DNA from: Candidatus Saccharimonadota bacterium
GTDB taxonomy: Bacteria; Patescibacteriota; Saccharimonadia; Saccharimonadales; Saccharimonadaceae
DNA length: 64,000 bases
Assembly (NCBI GenBank): GCA_017404935.1
Contig: JAFRBI010000004.1
Location: 1 to 64,000, forward strand
Reading direction: 5' to 3'
Shown: in pieces, positions 6,742 through 16,798 of the stretch
Numbering within the stretch: position 1 is the first letter of the stretch
Layout of the letters: every line of letters begins with the position of its first letter
The notes under the pieces: generated by a model
Told to the model about the DNA's origin: nothing
Database searches by the model: none
The model's input: the letters and a program-made list of their open reading frames with translations, nothing else
Translations under genes and position numbers: made by a program

Positions 6742-9596
<2,855 letters not shown>

Positions 9597-9600
9597 AAAA

Positions 9601-9626
9601 CACCCCGGGTTTTTAGGCCCGGGGCT
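9601..9626. terminator. Bidirectional terminator
   Basis: A 7-bp GC stem (CCCCGGG, 9603-9609, with CCCGGGG, 9618-9624) has an A run upstream and a T run in its loop. It sits between ligA and the convergent secreted-protein gene and can serve both. Confidence 0.75.
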
Positions 9627-9649
9627 TGTGAAAGGGGTTTGATGTGGGG

Positions 9650-10387
9650 TCAGCTTGCGTATGGTGTTTTGTAACTAAAGTTCCAGACGCCTCCGCTACC
9701 ATTGGGTCCGGTAGTGATGGCGATCATGTTGCCGGTAGAAGTTACGTAGTAGTAACCGCCGGGGACAACTCTGCCGTTTGAAGCAATACCAGAACGTCCT
9801 GCCTTCCAACGGAAGATGATGTCGCGTGCGAGCGGAAGTAAACTTCTGCCGAAATCGTCGGTAAGATTTCCGTTGTAATCGTAGCCGAAGTTGCCGGCTA
9901 CGGTGCACACGCTGGCACCTTTGCCGCTGGCATCTACTGAGTTCATTACAGCCCAGCCGACACCGGCCTGAGCAGTTTGTGATGCAACGCCGTGAGCGTA
10001 GATGTTGATGATCCGAGCGAGAACCACAGCCTGGTCTTCGGTAGAGCCATCATAAACATCAAGAACGCCACCGTAGAAGTTGTAGTTATTGAAACCGTTG
10101 TTGTAGTTATTATTGTTGTTCCAGTTGCAGTTATTGTTCCAGTAGCTCCAGTTGTTGTAGTTCCAGTTGCAATCGTTCTTGTGATCTTTGCGATCGTTAT
10201 TGTTCCAGTCGGGCTGGGGATCGCAAATGTAGGTACAACCGTCATTTCCAACATAGTAGTATTTACTACCATTCCAGTAACAATAATGGCCATTATACCA
10301 ACCTTCGGTGGGCGCAGCGAAAACTGCAATCGGTAGGCTGGCCGCCATTAGAACAGCAGTCATCAGGATAACGAGAAATTTCTTCAT
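9650..10387 (-). CDS. Secreted SleB-like (cell wall hydrolase family) protein, degenerate
   Basis: The 245-residue protein starts with a clear signal peptide (MKKFLVILMTAVLMAASLPI, cleavage near AFA-AP). A Tyr/Trp/Asn-rich low-complexity region follows (about 30-115), with many NN and NW steps. The C-terminal part (about 120-245) resembles the SleB/Hydrolase_2 cortex-lytic fold: LARIIN-IYAHG then a VGWAVMNSV segment, matching the usual LARIIYGEARGE and AVAAVVLNRV. The catalytic Glu of that motif appears to be His or Gly here. The start at 10387 has a GAAAGGAGC ribosome site. Either a diverged peptidoglycan-binding protein or an inactive hydrolase; the family assignment is moderate. Confidence 0.6.
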   Translation of the reverse strand: MKKFLVILMTAVLMAASLPIAVFAAPTEGWYNGHYCYWNGSKYYYVGNDGCTYICDPQPDWNNNDRKDHKNDCNWNYNNWSYWNNNCNWNNNNNYNNGFNNYNFYGGVLDVYDGSTEDQAVVLARIINIYAHGVASQTAQAGVGWAVMNSVDASGKGASVCTVAGNFGYDYNGNLTDDFGRSLLPLARDIIFRWKAGRSGIASNGRVVPGGYYYVTSTGNMIAITTGPNGSGGVWNFSYKTPYAS

Positions 10388-10480
10388 ATTTTTGCTCCTT
10401 TCGTAAACCCACATCAAACTGTTAAAGTGCTCTATATATTATATCATTTTACAATAAAAAAAGCAACTCTGGTGAGGCTT

Positions 10481-10503
10481 CTTTTCGTGCTTCGCACGAA
10501 AAG
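10481..10503 (-). terminator. Hairpin downstream of tRNA-Glu
   Basis: A 10-bp perfect stem (CTTTTCGTGC and its mirror around TTC) is followed on the minus strand, a little later, by a T run near 10455-10462. It probably terminates the tRNA-Glu transcript. Confidence 0.5.
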
Positions 10504-10507
10504 AAAA

Positions 10508-10571
10508 GGTCACCGGCGGTACTCAAAAAATCCAAAACAAGTTTTGGATTTTTACTCGTACCTTGGTGACC
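10508..10571. repeat. Palindrome whose one arm is the tRNA-Glu 3' end
   Basis: The inverted repeat runs from GGTCACC at 10508 to GGTGACC at 10571. The outer arm pairs the tRNA-Glu CCA end and discriminator with a mirrored copy; the inner 16-nt arms (ATCCAAAAC and mirror) are perfect. The arm made of tRNA sequence suggests that flanking DNA was copied in inverted form, as at the protein-gene elements. Confidence 0.8.
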
Positions 10572-10638
10572 TCAGCGGGAATTGAACCCACATTGACGGG
10601 ATGAAAACCCGTTGTACTAACCATTATACTATGAGGCC
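10564..10638 (-). tRNA. tRNA-Glu(TTC)
   Basis: A full cloverleaf with encoded CCA: acceptor GGCCTCA/TGAGGTC, anticodon loop TTTTCAT in an ACGGG/CCCGT stem, normal T loop TTCAATT. A palindrome directly follows the 3' end and shares it as one arm. Confidence 0.96.
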
Positions 10639-10671
10639 ATAAAAGTGCTATTTTTATTATAACAAGAATTT

Positions 10672-11139
10672 TTAGAAATTGCAAGAGTAGGCGTAATCTA
10701 CGTGATAATTTTGACGGTCAAATGGCTCTTCTGGGTAGATTTTAATGTAGGTTTTTTCAAGGTCGCAGTATTTTTCAAAAAATTCTAGGGATGTAGCGTG
10801 CTTTTTATCGCTATATAATAATAGTTGGCGGAGACTAACCTTAGCGAGGCCGGTGTCTTTATAAATATCTAGAGCTTTGTGATCTGGCACAGAATCGTAA
10901 AAATAATTTTCGTAATAGTCAGACGTGATATTTTTGATGCGATTTTTGACTAGAAATTCTGGCGTGGCGATGAGATTAAAAATAGCAAAACCAACTACCA
11001 TTAAGGTTACAAATGTGATGACGGTAAGAATAGAATTTTTAGAAAAATGATAGGAATCGTAACTTCTAGAGCGCGAAAGTGCTGGCCCAGAAATAATCAC
11101 GGGCGTTTTAGAAACATGTACGTCTTCCGCACTCACCAT
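10672..11139 (-). CDS. Single-span membrane protein of unknown function
   Basis: I do not recognise this 155-residue protein. It has a short N-terminal region, one hydrophobic span (ILTVITFVTLMVVGFAIFNL, about residues 37-56) and an extracytoplasmic domain of about 100 residues with two cysteines near the end (YCDLEK, YSCNF) that could form a disulfide. Short basic and serine-rich N-terminal stretches suggest a type II orientation. The ATG at 11139 sits a few nt after a TATAAT-like box. It is divergent from pyk and upstream of tRNA-Glu on the same strand. Confidence 0.6.
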   Translation of the reverse strand: MVSAEDVHVSKTPVIISGPALSRSRSYDSYHFSKNSILTVITFVTLMVVGFAIFNLIATPEFLVKNRIKNITSDYYENYFYDSVPDHKALDIYKDTGLAKVSLRQLLLYSDKKHATSLEFFEKYCDLEKTYIKIYPEEPFDRQNYHVDYAYSCNF

Positions 11140-11187: not shown

Positions 11188-12621
11188 ATGAGTAAACTTT
11201 TTAAGAGAACAAAAATTTTGGCGACGATTGGTCCGTCGGTTTTTGGTCAAGAAAAAATTGATGAAATTATTATGGCTGGTGTAAATGGTTGCCGGCTGAA
11301 TTGTTCGCACGGTACTAATGAAGAACGTGATGAACAAATTAAGTGGATTAGAAATGCGGCAGAAAAAAAAGGTCGTTCCGTTGCGATTTTACAAGATCTT
11401 CAAGGTCCAAAAATTAGATTAGGTGAAATTGTTGATAATCATCTAGATCTTTCTTCTGGTGACGAAGTGATTTTGGAAGCTCAGGAAGGTTTTGAGCACG
11501 ACGGTGGGCTGACTTTGCCGGTGCAATATAATTTGGCAGGAAAGGTAAAAGTGGGCGAGCCGCTTTTTATGTTTGATGGCAAAATCAAAACCGAAATTAT
11601 TGAAATTGTTTCTGAAACTGCCATTAAAGTAAAAGTCTTAAATGATGGTTTTGTGATGAGCAAGAAAGGTCTTAATCTTCCAGACACAGATTTTGGTGGC
11701 GACATTATTACGCCGAAAGATATGGAAGATTTGGAATATGGGTCGGGGTGTGATTATGATTACGTGGCGCTTTCTTTTGTGCAGTCGGCTCACGACATTG
11801 AAAATTTGAAACAGATTCTTTTGTCGCTTGGCTCTACGGCAAAAGTGATTGCCAAAATTGAAACTAAAAAAGCAATTTCCTCGGATGAAAATTTGGAGGA
11901 AATTGTAAAAGCGTCGGATGGAATTATGGTGGCGCGTGGTGATATGGCAGTAGAAGCAGGTAACGAAGTGGTGCCGATTGTGCAAAGAAAATTAATTGCA
12001 CTTTGTCGGGCACATTCTAAACTTTGTATTGTGGCAACGCAAATGATGGGCTCGATGGTAGAAAGTCCAGAGCCTACTCGTGCAGAAGTTTCGGACGTAG
12101 CGACGGCGGTAATTCAAGGTGCAGACTGTGTGATGCTTTCGGATGAAACTGCCAATGGTAAATATCCGGTTGAAGCTGTTTCGGAAATGAAGCGCGTGAT
12201 TTTGTATACACAAAATCATTCCAAAGTTGCAGGAATGTCGGTTTCGCCAGAAGGTGAAAAGGCACTTTACGATGGTATTTCGGATGCAGTAGCAAGACTC
12301 GCTGAAAAAATTGAAGCCGATGTAATTGTGTGTCAGACGGCTTCGGGAACCACGGCTCTTACGATGGCAGCGCAAAGACCGAACGTGCCGATTATTTCGG
12401 TGACGCCAAATCCTCGGGTGGCAAATCAACTAGCTTTAACTTATGCTAACTCGGCATTTGTAAGAAAATACGATGAAAATTTTGGAAAAGAATTAACTTT
12501 GGAATTAAAAGATTCGGGTTATCTTTTGACTAAGCCGGGCAAAAAAGATTTGCTAGCCGTAATAGTATCGGGTGATAAAAATAAATATGGCACCGATACA
12601 ATTAAGATTCGACACATTTAA
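11188..12621 (+). CDS. pyk: Pyruvate kinase
   Basis: Pyruvate kinase makes ATP and pyruvate from phosphoenolpyruvate and ADP. The 477-residue sequence has the opening TKILATIGPS, substrate motif RLNCSHG, the conserved KIETKKAI block (catalytic Lys, metal Glu) and GIMVARGDMAVE, then an MLSDETANGKYP segment and a C-terminal regulatory-type domain. The B domain (about 73-165) is present. Length matches bacterial enzymes. The ATG lies directly after a TATAAT-like run, so the mRNA is probably leaderless. Its 3' end overlaps pgk by 20 nt on the opposite strand. Together with pgk, tpiA and the aldolase it makes up part of lower glycolysis. Confidence 0.97.
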   Translation: MSKLFKRTKILATIGPSVFGQEKIDEIIMAGVNGCRLNCSHGTNEERDEQIKWIRNAAEKKGRSVAILQDLQGPKIRLGEIVDNHLDLSSGDEVILEAQEGFEHDGGLTLPVQYNLAGKVKVGEPLFMFDGKIKTEIIEIVSETAIKVKVLNDGFVMSKKGLNLPDTDFGGDIITPKDMEDLEYGSGCDYDYVALSFVQSAHDIENLKQILLSLGSTAKVIAKIETKKAISSDENLEEIVKASDGIMVARGDMAVEAGNEVVPIVQRKLIALCRAHSKLCIVATQMMGSMVESPEPTRAEVSDVATAVIQGADCVMLSDETANGKYPVEAVSEMKRVILYTQNHSKVAGMSVSPEGEKALYDGISDAVARLAEKIEADVIVCQTASGTTALTMAAQRPNVPIISVTPNPRVANQLALTYANSAFVRKYDENFGKELTLELKDSGYLLTKPGKKDLLAVIVSGDKNKYGTDTIKIRHI

Positions 12622-13704: not shown

Positions 13705-15255
13705 ATGAAAAAAGCGAAGTCATATCAGGAAGTAATTGGCGAAACTATTGAACAGATGCGCCTAGAAAAAGGCTGGACTCAAGGTGAATTAGCCGAGGCT
13801 ACCGGCACTTCTCAGTCTGCAATTCACAGAATTGAAAAAGGTGGTCAGAATATTTCTCTTGAAATGGTGAAGAAACTTTCTGAGGCCCTTGGTAATCAAA
13901 TTCTCTCTATTAACGACTCCGTTTCTCAGAGTTTTAGGATTCGTGGCGGCAAGGAACTTAGTGGTGAAATCACCATTAATACTTCCAAAAATGCAGCCGT
14001 AGCACTTCTGATGGCGGCACTTTTAAACTCTGGCAGAACGGTGCTTCACAAAGTGGCTAGAATTGAAGAGGTGTTTAGAATTATTGAAGTTCTTGAATCT
14101 ATCGGTGTAAAATGCCATTGGCAAAATCGCCATCGGGACTTAGAAATTATATCACCACGCGAATTGAAATTAGAAAATATGGACGTTGAAGCAGCGAGGA
14201 AAACACGCTCGGTAATTATGATGTTGGGGCCACTGCTTCATCGCTACAAGAAATTTACGCTTCCTTATGCTGGTGGTTGTTCTTTGGGCGTTCGCACGAT
14301 TGAACCACACTTAAAAGCTCTAGAATCTTTTGGTGTAAAAGTAGACGCCGAAACTAACAGTGGTTTTTATGAGGTAGAAGTAAATCAACATACACTCAAA
14401 AAATACGAAGATCGGTATATCGTATTGGTGGAACGTGGTGATACGGTGACCGAAAATGTTTTGATGGCGGCGGCACTTTCGCCTGGCAAGACCACAATTG
14501 TAGGTGCATCACCAAATTATATGGTGCAAGACATGTGCTTCTTCCTTGAAAAATTGGGTGTAAAAATTAGTGGTATTGGCACAACGACTTTGGTGGTGAG
14601 AGGGCGTAATAAAATTGATTTGGACGTGGAATATAATCTTTCCGAAGACCCGATTGAAGCAATGAGCTTTATTGCGGCAGCTTATGCGACACATTCAAAA
14701 ATTACTCTAAGGCGCGCGCCAATTGAGTTTTTGGAAATTGAGCTTGAGATTCTTAAATCTATGAATGCGAAATTTAAAAAGTCTGAAGAGTATTTGTCTA
14801 ATAACGGTAGAACGCGTTTGGTAGATTTGACGATTTTGAAGTCTGATCTAGTGGCGCCGGTAGATAAAATTCACCCAATGCCATTTCCAGGGCTTAATAT
14901 TGATAATCTTCCGTTTTTCTCAGTAATTGCAGCGGTGGCAGAAGGTCGAACGATGATCCATGACTGGGTATTTGAAAATCGCGCGATTTATACTACGGAA
15001 CTTGCGAATTTGAATGTAAAGGTAGAGCTTCTTGATGCGCACCGTTTGTATGTAGAAGGGCCAACTAACTGGCGCCCGGCTGAGCTCGTAGCGCCACAAG
15101 CTCTTAGACCTGCGGTGGTGGTTTTGATTGGTATGCTTGCTGCACCTGGCACTTCAATTCTCCGTAATGTTTATTCGATTAACCGCGGTTATCAAGATTT
15201 TGCCGTACGGCTTCGTCATCTTGGCGCAGATATCACTCCACTTACGGGTATCTAG
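13705..15255 (+). CDS. murA: UDP-GlcNAc 1-carboxyvinyltransferase MurA with N-terminal HTH domain
   Basis: MurA makes the first committed step to peptidoglycan, adding enolpyruvate to UDP-GlcNAc. The 516-residue protein has an extra N-terminal Xre-type helix-turn-helix (about residues 8-68; IGETIEQMRLEKGWTQGELA, then TSQSAIHRIEKG). The enzyme domain starts near residue 78 (IRGGKELSGEI). It keeps the catalytic K95-N96 pair and the cysteine of the fosfomycin loop (C192 in AGGCSLGVRT), so activity and fosfomycin sensitivity are expected. The ATG is 6 nt after TATAAT, a leaderless arrangement. The fused DNA-binding domain could link cell wall synthesis to transcription; that is inference. Confidence 0.93.
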   Translation: MKKAKSYQEVIGETIEQMRLEKGWTQGELAEATGTSQSAIHRIEKGGQNISLEMVKKLSEALGNQILSINDSVSQSFRIRGGKELSGEITINTSKNAAVALLMAALLNSGRTVLHKVARIEEVFRIIEVLESIGVKCHWQNRHRDLEIISPRELKLENMDVEAARKTRSVIMMLGPLLHRYKKFTLPYAGGCSLGVRTIEPHLKALESFGVKVDAETNSGFYEVEVNQHTLKKYEDRYIVLVERGDTVTENVLMAAALSPGKTTIVGASPNYMVQDMCFFLEKLGVKISGIGTTTLVVRGRNKIDLDVEYNLSEDPIEAMSFIAAAYATHSKITLRRAPIEFLEIELEILKSMNAKFKKSEEYLSNNGRTRLVDLTILKSDLVAPVDKIHPMPFPGLNIDNLPFFSVIAAVAEGRTMIHDWVFENRAIYTTELANLNVKVELLDAHRLYVEGPTNWRPAELVAPQALRPAVVVLIGMLAAPGTSILRNVYSINRGYQDFAVRLRHLGADITPLTGI

Positions 15256-15303
15256 TTACGCTTGGCTTTTTGTGAAAAATTGTTGAGGTTATGTTTTTTG
15301 TGA

Positions 15304-15490
15304 TATAATGGAAGTGCGATATTCTAATTATGTTACGATGGTAGTTCCTATTTGTTATATAGGTTCTTCCACAACGAAAACGGTACCACAAGGCACTTTG
15401 GTTGTGGAAGCTACTATGTAACCCAATTAGAGTATCGCAGCCTTGCGGTACCGTTTTTAAGTACCGCACATAAAAAATAAGTGAGGTACC
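15304..15490 (+). ncRNA. Structured leader RNA, candidate cis-regulatory element
   Basis: After a TATAAT box (15304-15309) the leader folds on paper into a long closing stem (15315-15329 with 15425-15439, about 14 of 15 pairs), a hairpin at 15347-15363 and a 9-bp hairpin (15367-15375 with 15401-15409) with a 25-nt loop. Loop nucleotides 15377-15387 (AAAACGGTACC) are perfectly complementary over 11 nt to 15447-15457. That strand can instead pair with 15461-15468 (TGCGGTAC/GTACCGCA). GGTACC occurs again within the ribosome site next to the ATG at 15491. This is a two-state layout typical of riboswitches or autoregulated leaders. The ligand, if any, is unknown. Confidence 0.6.
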
Positions 15491-16798
15491 ATGCAAAAAG
15501 CCAAATATATATTATATATAGTAGCAATTTTAAGTATTTTTCTAATGTTTTCTGGTGATTCTACTTTTGCCGAAAATGTAGACTACAACGTCACCATCGC
15601 CCCAGCTCTTACTCTCACTACTACCACTAATTCTTTGGTTCTTAATCTAGATCCATCGAGTAGGACTTTTGAATCTAAAACTCTCACAGTATCTGCTGGG
15701 ACTAATAATAAGACTGGTTATACATTAATTCTATCTACGCCAAATGATAATACGGACCTAGATAGAAATAGTAGTGCAGACAGTATAACAGCTACTATAC
15801 CTACACTAGCTTCTGGTACCTATACAGAATCTACCTTTACTGCAGATAGATGGGGCTATAAGATAAATTCTAATACATCGCTGCCTAGTATTATTACTAC
15901 AGACTATATACCATTTGTTTCTGGTAATACCTTAATGGAAAGCTCTACCGCTATTAACCACGATGAAACAGAACTGGCCTTTGCTGCCAAAATAGACTAT
16001 TTACAGCCTGCTGGAGCTTATAATACCACACTTCAGTTTAGTATGGTGGCGAACCCGGACATACAAAATATACAGAATTTAGACCCCAGCTTTTGCACCG
16101 CTGTGCCAATAACGGTGATAGATGAACGTGACAATGAAGAGTACCTCGTACAGCGATTAGCCGATGGCAATTGTTGGTTACTTGATAATCTCCGCTTGGA
16201 CATCAGCGACCCAGCTATTCAAACAAAACTCGACTCTACTACTACCAATGCTACAGATGCAACGCTTAATTATCTTATTAACGGCGGAGGCACATCGCCA
16301 TACGCGACAACGTCGGTATCTTCAACTTATGGAGACTCGTATATAGCGCCAAAGATTGTGCTAGACTATAAAGATACTGTAGTTTCTGGGACTGGTCTTG
16401 GCTCTAAAAAAGCCGGTGTCTATTATAATTATTGTGCTGTATCAGCAGGATCCTATTGTTATGCTGCTGCTGCCGGTAGTGGCCCTGCCCTATACGATAT
16501 ATGTCCAAGAGGGTGGCATCTCCCTACTAGCGCTGAATATACGGCATTATTTTCTAGCTATCCAGATCGATCTGCATTTAAGGAGGCTTTTAGCGTTCAA
16601 CTCTCTGGAGCGATCGGCAATAAAGGTGCTACTATGTGGCAGGAATCTTACGGGATGTTTTGGTCAAAAACGTTTGCTAATAGCTACTATATGTATTATC
16701 TTTGGATAAATGATGAAACAGTAGCGATGATGTATTATTTGCAAGGTTATGCTACATACCGCAACTGGGGGATGCCAATTCGCTGCGTTGCTAGCTAA
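15491..16798 (+). CDS. Secreted FISUMP-domain surface protein
   Basis: The 435-residue protein opens with a signal peptide or anchor (residues about 5-27, ending SGDSTFAEN). Residues about 30-200 form a Thr/Ser-rich beta region (VTIAPALTLTTTTNSLVL). The C-terminal half (about 205-435) matches the Fibrobacter succinogenes major paralogous (FISUMP) domain: LADGNCWLLDNLRL, DICPRGWHLPTSAEY and closing MPIRCV. Such proteins are secreted and of unknown function, often in CPR and Bacteroidetes. Several cysteines (about six) could form disulfides. Translation starts at GAGGTACC-ATG, right after the structured leader, so its expression is probably controlled post-transcription. Confidence 0.8.
   Translation: MQKAKYILYIVAILSIFLMFSGDSTFAENVDYNVTIAPALTLTTTTNSLVLNLDPSSRTFESKTLTVSAGTNNKTGYTLILSTPNDNTDLDRNSSADSITATIPTLASGTYTESTFTADRWGYKINSNTSLPSIITTDYIPFVSGNTLMESSTAINHDETELAFAAKIDYLQPAGAYNTTLQFSMVANPDIQNIQNLDPSFCTAVPITVIDERDNEEYLVQRLADGNCWLLDNLRLDISDPAIQTKLDSTTTNATDATLNYLINGGGTSPYATTSVSSTYGDSYIAPKIVLDYKDTVVSGTGLGSKKAGVYYNYCAVSAGSYCYAAAAGSGPALYDICPRGWHLPTSAEYTALFSSYPDRSAFKEAFSVQLSGAIGNKGATMWQESYGMFWSKTFANSYYMYYLWINDETVAMMYYLQGYATYRNWGMPIRCVAS

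Follow-up and report, generated by a model that had tools for sequence, protein, structure and literature searches.

An apparently undescribed folded RNA leader upstream of surface-protein genes in Saccharibacteria: a candidate transcription attenuator

The window, a stretch of 64,000 nucleotides, belongs to a 740-kb Candidatus Saccharimonadota genome and contains a leader located between a MurA-like gene (13705-15255) and a gene encoding a FISUMP protein (Table 1). The upstream gene encodes an EPSP-synthase-family protein with an N-terminal helix-turn-helix domain, which is an unusual fusion. The FISUMP protein scored 53.9 bits against TIGR02145 (cut-off 41.65) and 30.3 bits against Pfam PF09603, just below the cut-off of 33.9, and its AlphaFold model (mean pLDDT 52.7) was too poor for a structure search. 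Relatives of this protein were found in Saccharibacteria genomes, mostly from the ruminant gut, and the search of genome contigs for such relatives gave mostly mid-gene matches without a leader.

The region 15304-15490 had been predicted to be structured, and its fold of -66.8 kcal/mol agrees with this: 200 dinucleotide shuffles gave -40.1 +/- 4.3 kcal/mol and none was as good (z -6.2). The predicted fold is a rod of P1, P1b, a small side hairpin (P2) and P3, with strand A in the apical loop. In the window, P1 begins 6 nt past the extended -10 box and strand B begins directly after the P1 3' strand. A perfect 11-nt pairing between 15377-15387 and 15447-15457, which the original prediction described, is present within a longer helix (15376-15394 with 15440-15458) that has 18 of 19 positions paired, and the alternative pairing of 15444-15451 with 15461-15468 also exists (8/8). 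That set of pairings was right as far as it went but missed that B also pairs with the end of P1, T5, as GTATCGCA-GCCT-TGCGGTAC (15432-15439 with 15444-15451), at -10 kcal/mol and followed by CG-TTTTT. Mutually exclusive pairings, as originally proposed for B, are conserved across the family described below.

Table 1. Features of the leader and its downstream gene in the window
Feature	Position	Strand	Details	Basis
Likely sigma-70-type promoter	15280..15309	+	TTGTTG 15280-15285, 18-nt spacer, extended -10 TGA-TATAAT 15304-15309	sequence
P1 5' strand, TGCGATATTCTAATT	15315..15329	+	partner 15425-15439	covariation
P1b 5' strands, GTTAC and ATGGTAG	15332..15344	+	partners 15418-15422 and 15411-15417	fold
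P2, AU-rich side hairpin CCTAT-loop-ATAGG	15347..15363	+		fold
P3 5' strand, CTTCCACAAC	15366..15375	+	partner 15401-15410	fold
Strand A, apical loop complementary to B	15376..15394	+	18/19 paired with B	
P1 3' strand	15425..15439	+	last 8 nt, 15432-15439 (GTATCGCA), double as T5, the terminator-like hairpin's 5' arm	
Strand B, complementary to A	15440..15458	+	includes terminator 3' arm 15444-15451 (TGCGGTAC) and U-tract 15454-15458	
Strand A', second complement of B, 3' of the U-tract	15461..15469	+	in this copy also 8/9 with 15481-15489 around the Shine-Dalgarno	
Shine-Dalgarno region and start	15481..15493	+	GAGG 15483-15486, ATG 15491-15493	sequence
FISUMP (Fib_succ_major) protein, 435 aa	15491..16798	+	N-terminal hydrophobic signal-like stretch	TIGR02145

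The leader at 15304-15490 belongs to a family of folded RNA leaders that occurs across Saccharibacteria and is apparently undescribed. BLASTN with the whole element found no second full-length copy in its own genome, a result that, taken alone, would wrongly suggest a singleton. When 147 genomes of the genus were searched at the DNA level, the matches were all short, but the sequence around them revealed elements that differ in sequence and are laid out alike, with a -10 box, then a stem whose start lies close to the expected transcription start, loop A at the apex, strand B as its complement, and a U-tract. Six remote homologues were aligned (A1) as the seed of covariance model R1; a seven-sequence MAFFT alignment (A2) was set aside because the long copy L037 was misaligned. 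P1 is the sole structure in R1, while A, B, the -10 box and the U-tract are sequence columns, so copies without them are under-sampled. The leader was found with R1 in 72 of 174 genomes of the genus and in 40 of 295 genomes of the family (13 of 61 genera) and, with model R2, in 80 of 393 genomes of the order (30 of 156 genera). The phylum sample gave just two matches outside the order, one of them in a fragmented MAG on a contig of 5.6 kb, where contamination or transfer is possible.

Copies per genome go from one up to 52-71 matches in G055, G063 and G103, a minority of these being antisense shadows; such high counts occur in some genomes of 0.8-0.9 Mb. Antisense shadow matches of palindromic copies to the covariance model were not counted as copies. 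The genome of the window shows eight good copies and a ninth, L079 (G000:C3:17898-18034, minus strand), which is divergent: its loop code (TGCGGCTATTTACG/CGTAAATAGTCGCA) is unrelated to that of the others and its terminator-like hairpin is strong, and it lies upstream of a gene for a 204-aa protein with no obvious signal peptide. The -10 hexamer was TATAAT in 73 and TACAAT in 25 of 110 unique copies, counts to be read with the hexamer being part of the search model, so that copies lacking it are under-sampled. Across the family P1 has a median of 25 bp and P3 of 13, the P1b position is helical in most copies, and a 5'-side hairpin or bulge (median 17 nt) occupies the place of P2. The P1 and P3 lengths, together with A:B, would suit a fold-back at the P2 junction. 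A strict length ruler was considered and is unsupported by these lengths, the negative correlation between them being partly definitional. In G055, G063, G103, G005, G011 and other genomes, leaders were seen 27-400 nt from contig starts, and many contigs stop just 3' of a leader, as if repeated surface-gene starts broke the assembly; MAG gene counts of the leader-linked surface family are therefore probably too low.

Covariation was found in both helices that define the layout. Two-sided changes were present in 9 of 15 pairs of P1 and 5 of 18 pairs of A:B in the six sequences of A1, and were lost in both when the partners were slid. In A4, which contains 45 copies (two of them antisense shadow matches) and whose counts refer to related sequences rather than independent events, all 15 pairs of P1 showed two-sided changes, with 97% of cells paired. 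In the same alignment, the A:B helix, which is absent from the model structure, showed two-sided changes in 10 of 16 core pairs and was 92% paired, against about 40% when its partners were slid by 1-3 nt; on such sliding the compensatory signal of both helices broke down. Striking single cases are L215, which contains matching 1-nt insertions in A and B, L171 with its loop/strand code GCGGCCACGTG/CACGTGGTCGC, and L079. A test of strand pairing against shuffles, on 94 copies including 16 from other genera, found A:B better than shuffles in every copy. In several copies from other genera, among them L160, L169, L172, L173 and L177, an ATGCGGT-like strand lies immediately upstream of P3 and can pair with the ACCGCAT of A; such a pairing could hide A and was not seen in the genus of the window.

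The conserved 3' end of the leader looks like an intrinsic terminator. A run of five or six U directly follows B in 106 of 110 unique copies, and the hairpin before it, made from the end of P1 and B, has a mean of -7.1 kcal/mol in the genus vs -2.8 for shuffled sequences. This hairpin was recognisable in 134 of 137 copies, with 25 stem variants such as GACACC-UUGC-GGUGUC-G-UUUUUU, GCACC-CCUUGC-GGUGC-CA-UUUUU and GCGACUA-acguaaa-UAGUCGC-A-UUUUU; L009 and L025 have a weak version of it, and its commonest form has two nucleotides between the stem and the U-tract. At the level of sequence, a GC-rich hairpin with a U-tract thus lies between promoter and gene. Its 3' arm falls within the A:B helix in 134 of 134 copies, and 68% of the nucleotides of its 5' arm are already bound by the P1 5' strand when the 3' arm is synthesised, so that an alternative pairing is available to sequester each arm, P1 on the 5' side and A:B on the 3' side. 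The terminator state lies above the closed-P1 state by a median of 1.9 kcal/mol in the genus and 1.5 kcal/mol in the others, as would be expected of a switch; in the window copy it is 6.4 kcal/mol worse than closed P1. The start codon is found just 12-21 nt past the U-tract in L195, L203, L210, L211, L215 and L222, leaving no room for a second promoter, and the gene must then be reached by read-through.

Since both arms of the terminator are claimed by the folded leader, we lean towards reading it as a cis-acting transcription-attenuation element of a previously uncatalogued RNA family, by which the choice between an early stop of transcription and running on is probably made separately for each surface or defence gene behind it. 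Transcription would begin just before P1, and P1, P2 and P3 would form the rod that displays A in its apical loop, after which the RNA polymerase would make B and the U-tract. If T5 swapped to B, the intrinsic terminator would form and the RNA would end before the gene. If P1 stayed closed and A captured B in a pseudoknot of 15-19 bp, no free terminator arm would be left and transcription would read through into the surface-protein gene, in whose RNA A' could then hold B. The promoter-like box, P1, the A:B covariation, the hairpin with its U-tract, the overlapping pairings and the gene context are all legible in the sequences compared; what we infer is termination at the hairpin, an antiterminating and not a terminating role of A:B, and a signal that sets the balance. 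The leaders and downstream genes, when compared, gave no ligand, protein or gene theme indicating such a signal, and stochastic switching, a metabolite and a protein are all possible as the input.

Several points count against this model, among them the unfavourable terminator state of the window copy, the weak hairpin of L009 and L025, and the two nucleotides between stem and U-tract in the commonest form. In addition, only about 1 nt lies between the rod, of roughly 39 bp, and the start of B, and A:B can form only if the rod unfolds in part or bends sharply at the P2 junction. Furthermore, the U-tract is where the A:B helix ends as well, and this helix could itself be the terminator. The roles would then be reversed, the A:B pseudoknot with the U-tract stopping transcription and sequestration of A, by the upstream ATGCGGT strand in other genera or by a ligand-stabilised fold, giving read-through. 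The fit of A:B in all 94 copies, including those with a weak local hairpin, agrees with such a reversal, as do the GC-rich part of A:B that abuts the U-tract and the ATGCGGT strand seen by eye to face ACCGCAT of A in several other-genus copies. However, the local hairpin is conserved as well and should form faster, a 5' arm that sits about 50-60 nt upstream within a closed loop makes an awkward terminator, and the U-tract faces A or G of loop A in only 72-91% of copies, yet is itself near-invariant. We consider this reversal unlikely, although it is the strongest of the rival explanations.

Regulation of translation was the original idea, in which GGTACC recurring in the loop, the switch strand and the ribosome site would change access to the start codon. 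The three occurrences are present in the window copy, but the one at the ribosome site is not conserved: in the 94 copies, the pairing of B or of A with the start region was at background, that is at the level of shuffled or mismatched controls. GGTACC at the ribosome site was therefore rejected as a general device and appears to be a local feature of the window copy, where a ribosome-site switch is possible. In its three-strand form the idea has A, B and A' competing, with A' hiding or freeing the Shine-Dalgarno and start codon. The window copy allows this, as its A' GTACCGCAC (15461-15469) can pair with GTGAGGTAC (15481-15489) over the Shine-Dalgarno, and B:A' beats shuffles in 83% of genus copies (50% of other-genus copies). 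However, A' with the start region exceeds shuffles in just 37% of genus copies and in none of the 16 from other genera, some copies have no room for A' (start codon at +12 to +21), and the U-tract is left unexplained. The conserved sequestration of Shine-Dalgarno or start codon that characterizes a translational riboswitch was thus not found, and a translational switch in place of attenuation is improbable; a translational layer, if present, would be confined to part of the genus.

The promoter-like and terminator-like ends would also fit a separate gene for a trans-acting small RNA of 160 nt that merely lies upstream of surface genes. In the expanded genomes G055, G103 and G063, the A and B strands of different copies pair in trans nearly as well as in cis, as such a gene would allow. 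In the genome of the window, by contrast, pairing is cis-specific (cis A:B -28.8 vs trans -17.7 kcal/mol), with its own B as the best or joint-best partner of A in 9 of 9 copies, including L079. A permutation test on 66 copies never gave a mean as good as the cis one. Almost every inspected copy sits on the strand of a gene, immediately upstream of its start, and the gap of 12-21 nt would often leave downstream genes promoterless. A small RNA gene is accordingly a slightly poorer candidate even than the translational switch.

The leader was originally described as preceding a FISUMP gene. This holds in the window and in G055, where an ORF with a FISUMP-type C-terminus directly follows 30 of the 34 leaders inspected, and where, among 31 listed FISUMP matches, 23 have an upstream leader, three are at contig edges and five are without one; the association is nevertheless wider than FISUMP. 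The leader is not used by all FISUMP genes either, as seen from the 23 FISUMP matches against about nine leaders in the genome of the window and from G046, which shows 71 FISUMP matches and no match to the model. Many of the matches in G046 (contigs C1, C4 and C7) are packed in open frames of about 2000-3850 codons with tandem FISUMP domains, and these frames are an alternative way of holding the repertoire. In other genera, the genes behind leaders encode a T4SS pilin, a PASTA/Ltp lipoprotein, a viperin-like radical SAM protein, and OmpA-like, NHL-repeat and small membrane proteins; DNA methyltransferases are found behind L163, L171, L174 and L207, and the restriction enzyme Tsp45I behind L172. 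The common theme of the leader-linked genes is cell surface and defence.

Comparison between species revealed 13 orthologous sites whose upstream flanks are 81-100% identical, and in the orthologous leader pairs with enough sequence the downstream gene was always only paralogue-like (0.49-0.64). Conserved flanks with paralogue-like genes indicate that surface genes are exchanged behind leaders that stay in place. In L084 (G103:C8:20322-23477) and L120 (G055:C1:11100-16300) the two sequences are identical through flank and leader and diverge sharply once past the U-tract; this and other pairs suggest cassette replacement or gene conversion of surface genes. The break exactly after the U-tract, as well as the 52-71 dispersed matches in some genomes, might be expected of a mobile or recombination DNA element, palindromic and MITE- or att-like, that does not act as RNA. 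However, copies far apart in sequence are linked by compensatory pair changes, the promoter-like box sits at a fixed spot with the element oriented toward the gene start, and no transposase or integrase was noticed beside the inspected chromosomal copies. MITE copies would be near-identical, whereas the copies of the window's own genome have diverged too far for BLASTN to link them, and what they have in common is structure and not sequence. Such a DNA element is very improbable, the least probable of the rivals weighed here. A viral-labelled IMG/VR contig (L227, IMGVR_UViG_3300029305_004784) contains the 3' motif of the leader at 11272-11294 (minus strand), with a surface-protein gene at 10354-11112 (minus strand) and a convergent tyrosine-recombinase-like gene at 9351-10205 (plus strand).

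No known RNA family had been recognized in this layout, and Rfam bears this out: at the gathering threshold, Rfam 15 matched only tRNAs in the window and in 15 loci with other copies, and at E up to 10 the window copy gave chance matches only, far below threshold. The T-box riboswitch (RF00230) has an invariant UGGN bulge that pairs with the NCCA end of tRNA and controls genes for aminoacyl-tRNA synthetases or for amino-acid synthesis or uptake. The leader resembles it in a TGG-ACC-like sequence (TGGCACCG), in its position, in the competing terminator and antiterminator, and in the start codon soon after the U-tract, although the T-box family was not among the matches of the window copy at E up to 10 and no specifier domain was recognised. 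The UGG that would be the partner of the tRNA 3' end is CGG in the window and many other copies, its partner in B covarying with it (UA 20, CG 16; columns 118/305 of A4), and the genes behind the leader are not amino-acid genes. T-box identity was rejected on the non-invariant UGG and on the gene context of FISUMP, restriction-modification, pilin, lipoprotein and membrane proteins. In pseudoknot riboswitches of the preQ1-I type, a hairpin loop pairs with a downstream strand overlapping the expression platform, as in the leader; however, the leader has about 160 nt, its loop helix has 15-19 bp instead of a few, and no family matches it. Classical attenuators and terminator leaders controlled by proteins or sRNAs share the order of promoter, structured leader with mutually exclusive hairpins, intrinsic terminator and gene, but no leader peptide was seen here, and a single leader type stands before dozens of different surface genes per cell. 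With regard to metabolite riboswitches, pairing with B accounts for most of the conservation of the loop nucleotides, and the genes show no metabolic theme. The description "riboswitch-like" holds in the sense of a structured, conserved and cis-acting leader, while "riboswitch" in the strict sense is unproven.

Within the main texts that it covered, the literature search found no survey naming such a motif and no paper combining FISUMP and Saccharibacteria. Surveys of candidate structured RNAs (for example PMC8040213) likewise concern the comparative discovery of structured leaders and palindromic terminators; no motif from Saccharibacteria, TM7 or Patescibacteria is mentioned in the main text of PMC8040213.

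The leader is a genuine and conserved feature that is apparently uncatalogued, and its loop-to-terminator pseudoknot would be unusually long. A broader proposal, which we put forward tentatively and with more doubt than the attenuator reading, is that it represents a new class of RNA switch with which ultrasmall, host-attached bacteria gate, one by one, a whole repertoire of dozens of surface adhesins in a genome and, in other cases, defence genes, through a pseudoknot of 15-19 bp with its own matched code in each leader and with the genes behind swapped between species. Control of attachment and differentiation in Patescibacteria has been described as completely unknown (PMC11665869). A promoter-linked RNA element before surface, pilin, lipoprotein and restriction-modification genes in 30 genera offers a concrete, testable regulatory system in these bacteria. 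If confirmed, it would add a class of cis-regulatory RNAs and would provide a natural on/off module for organisms without inducible expression tools.
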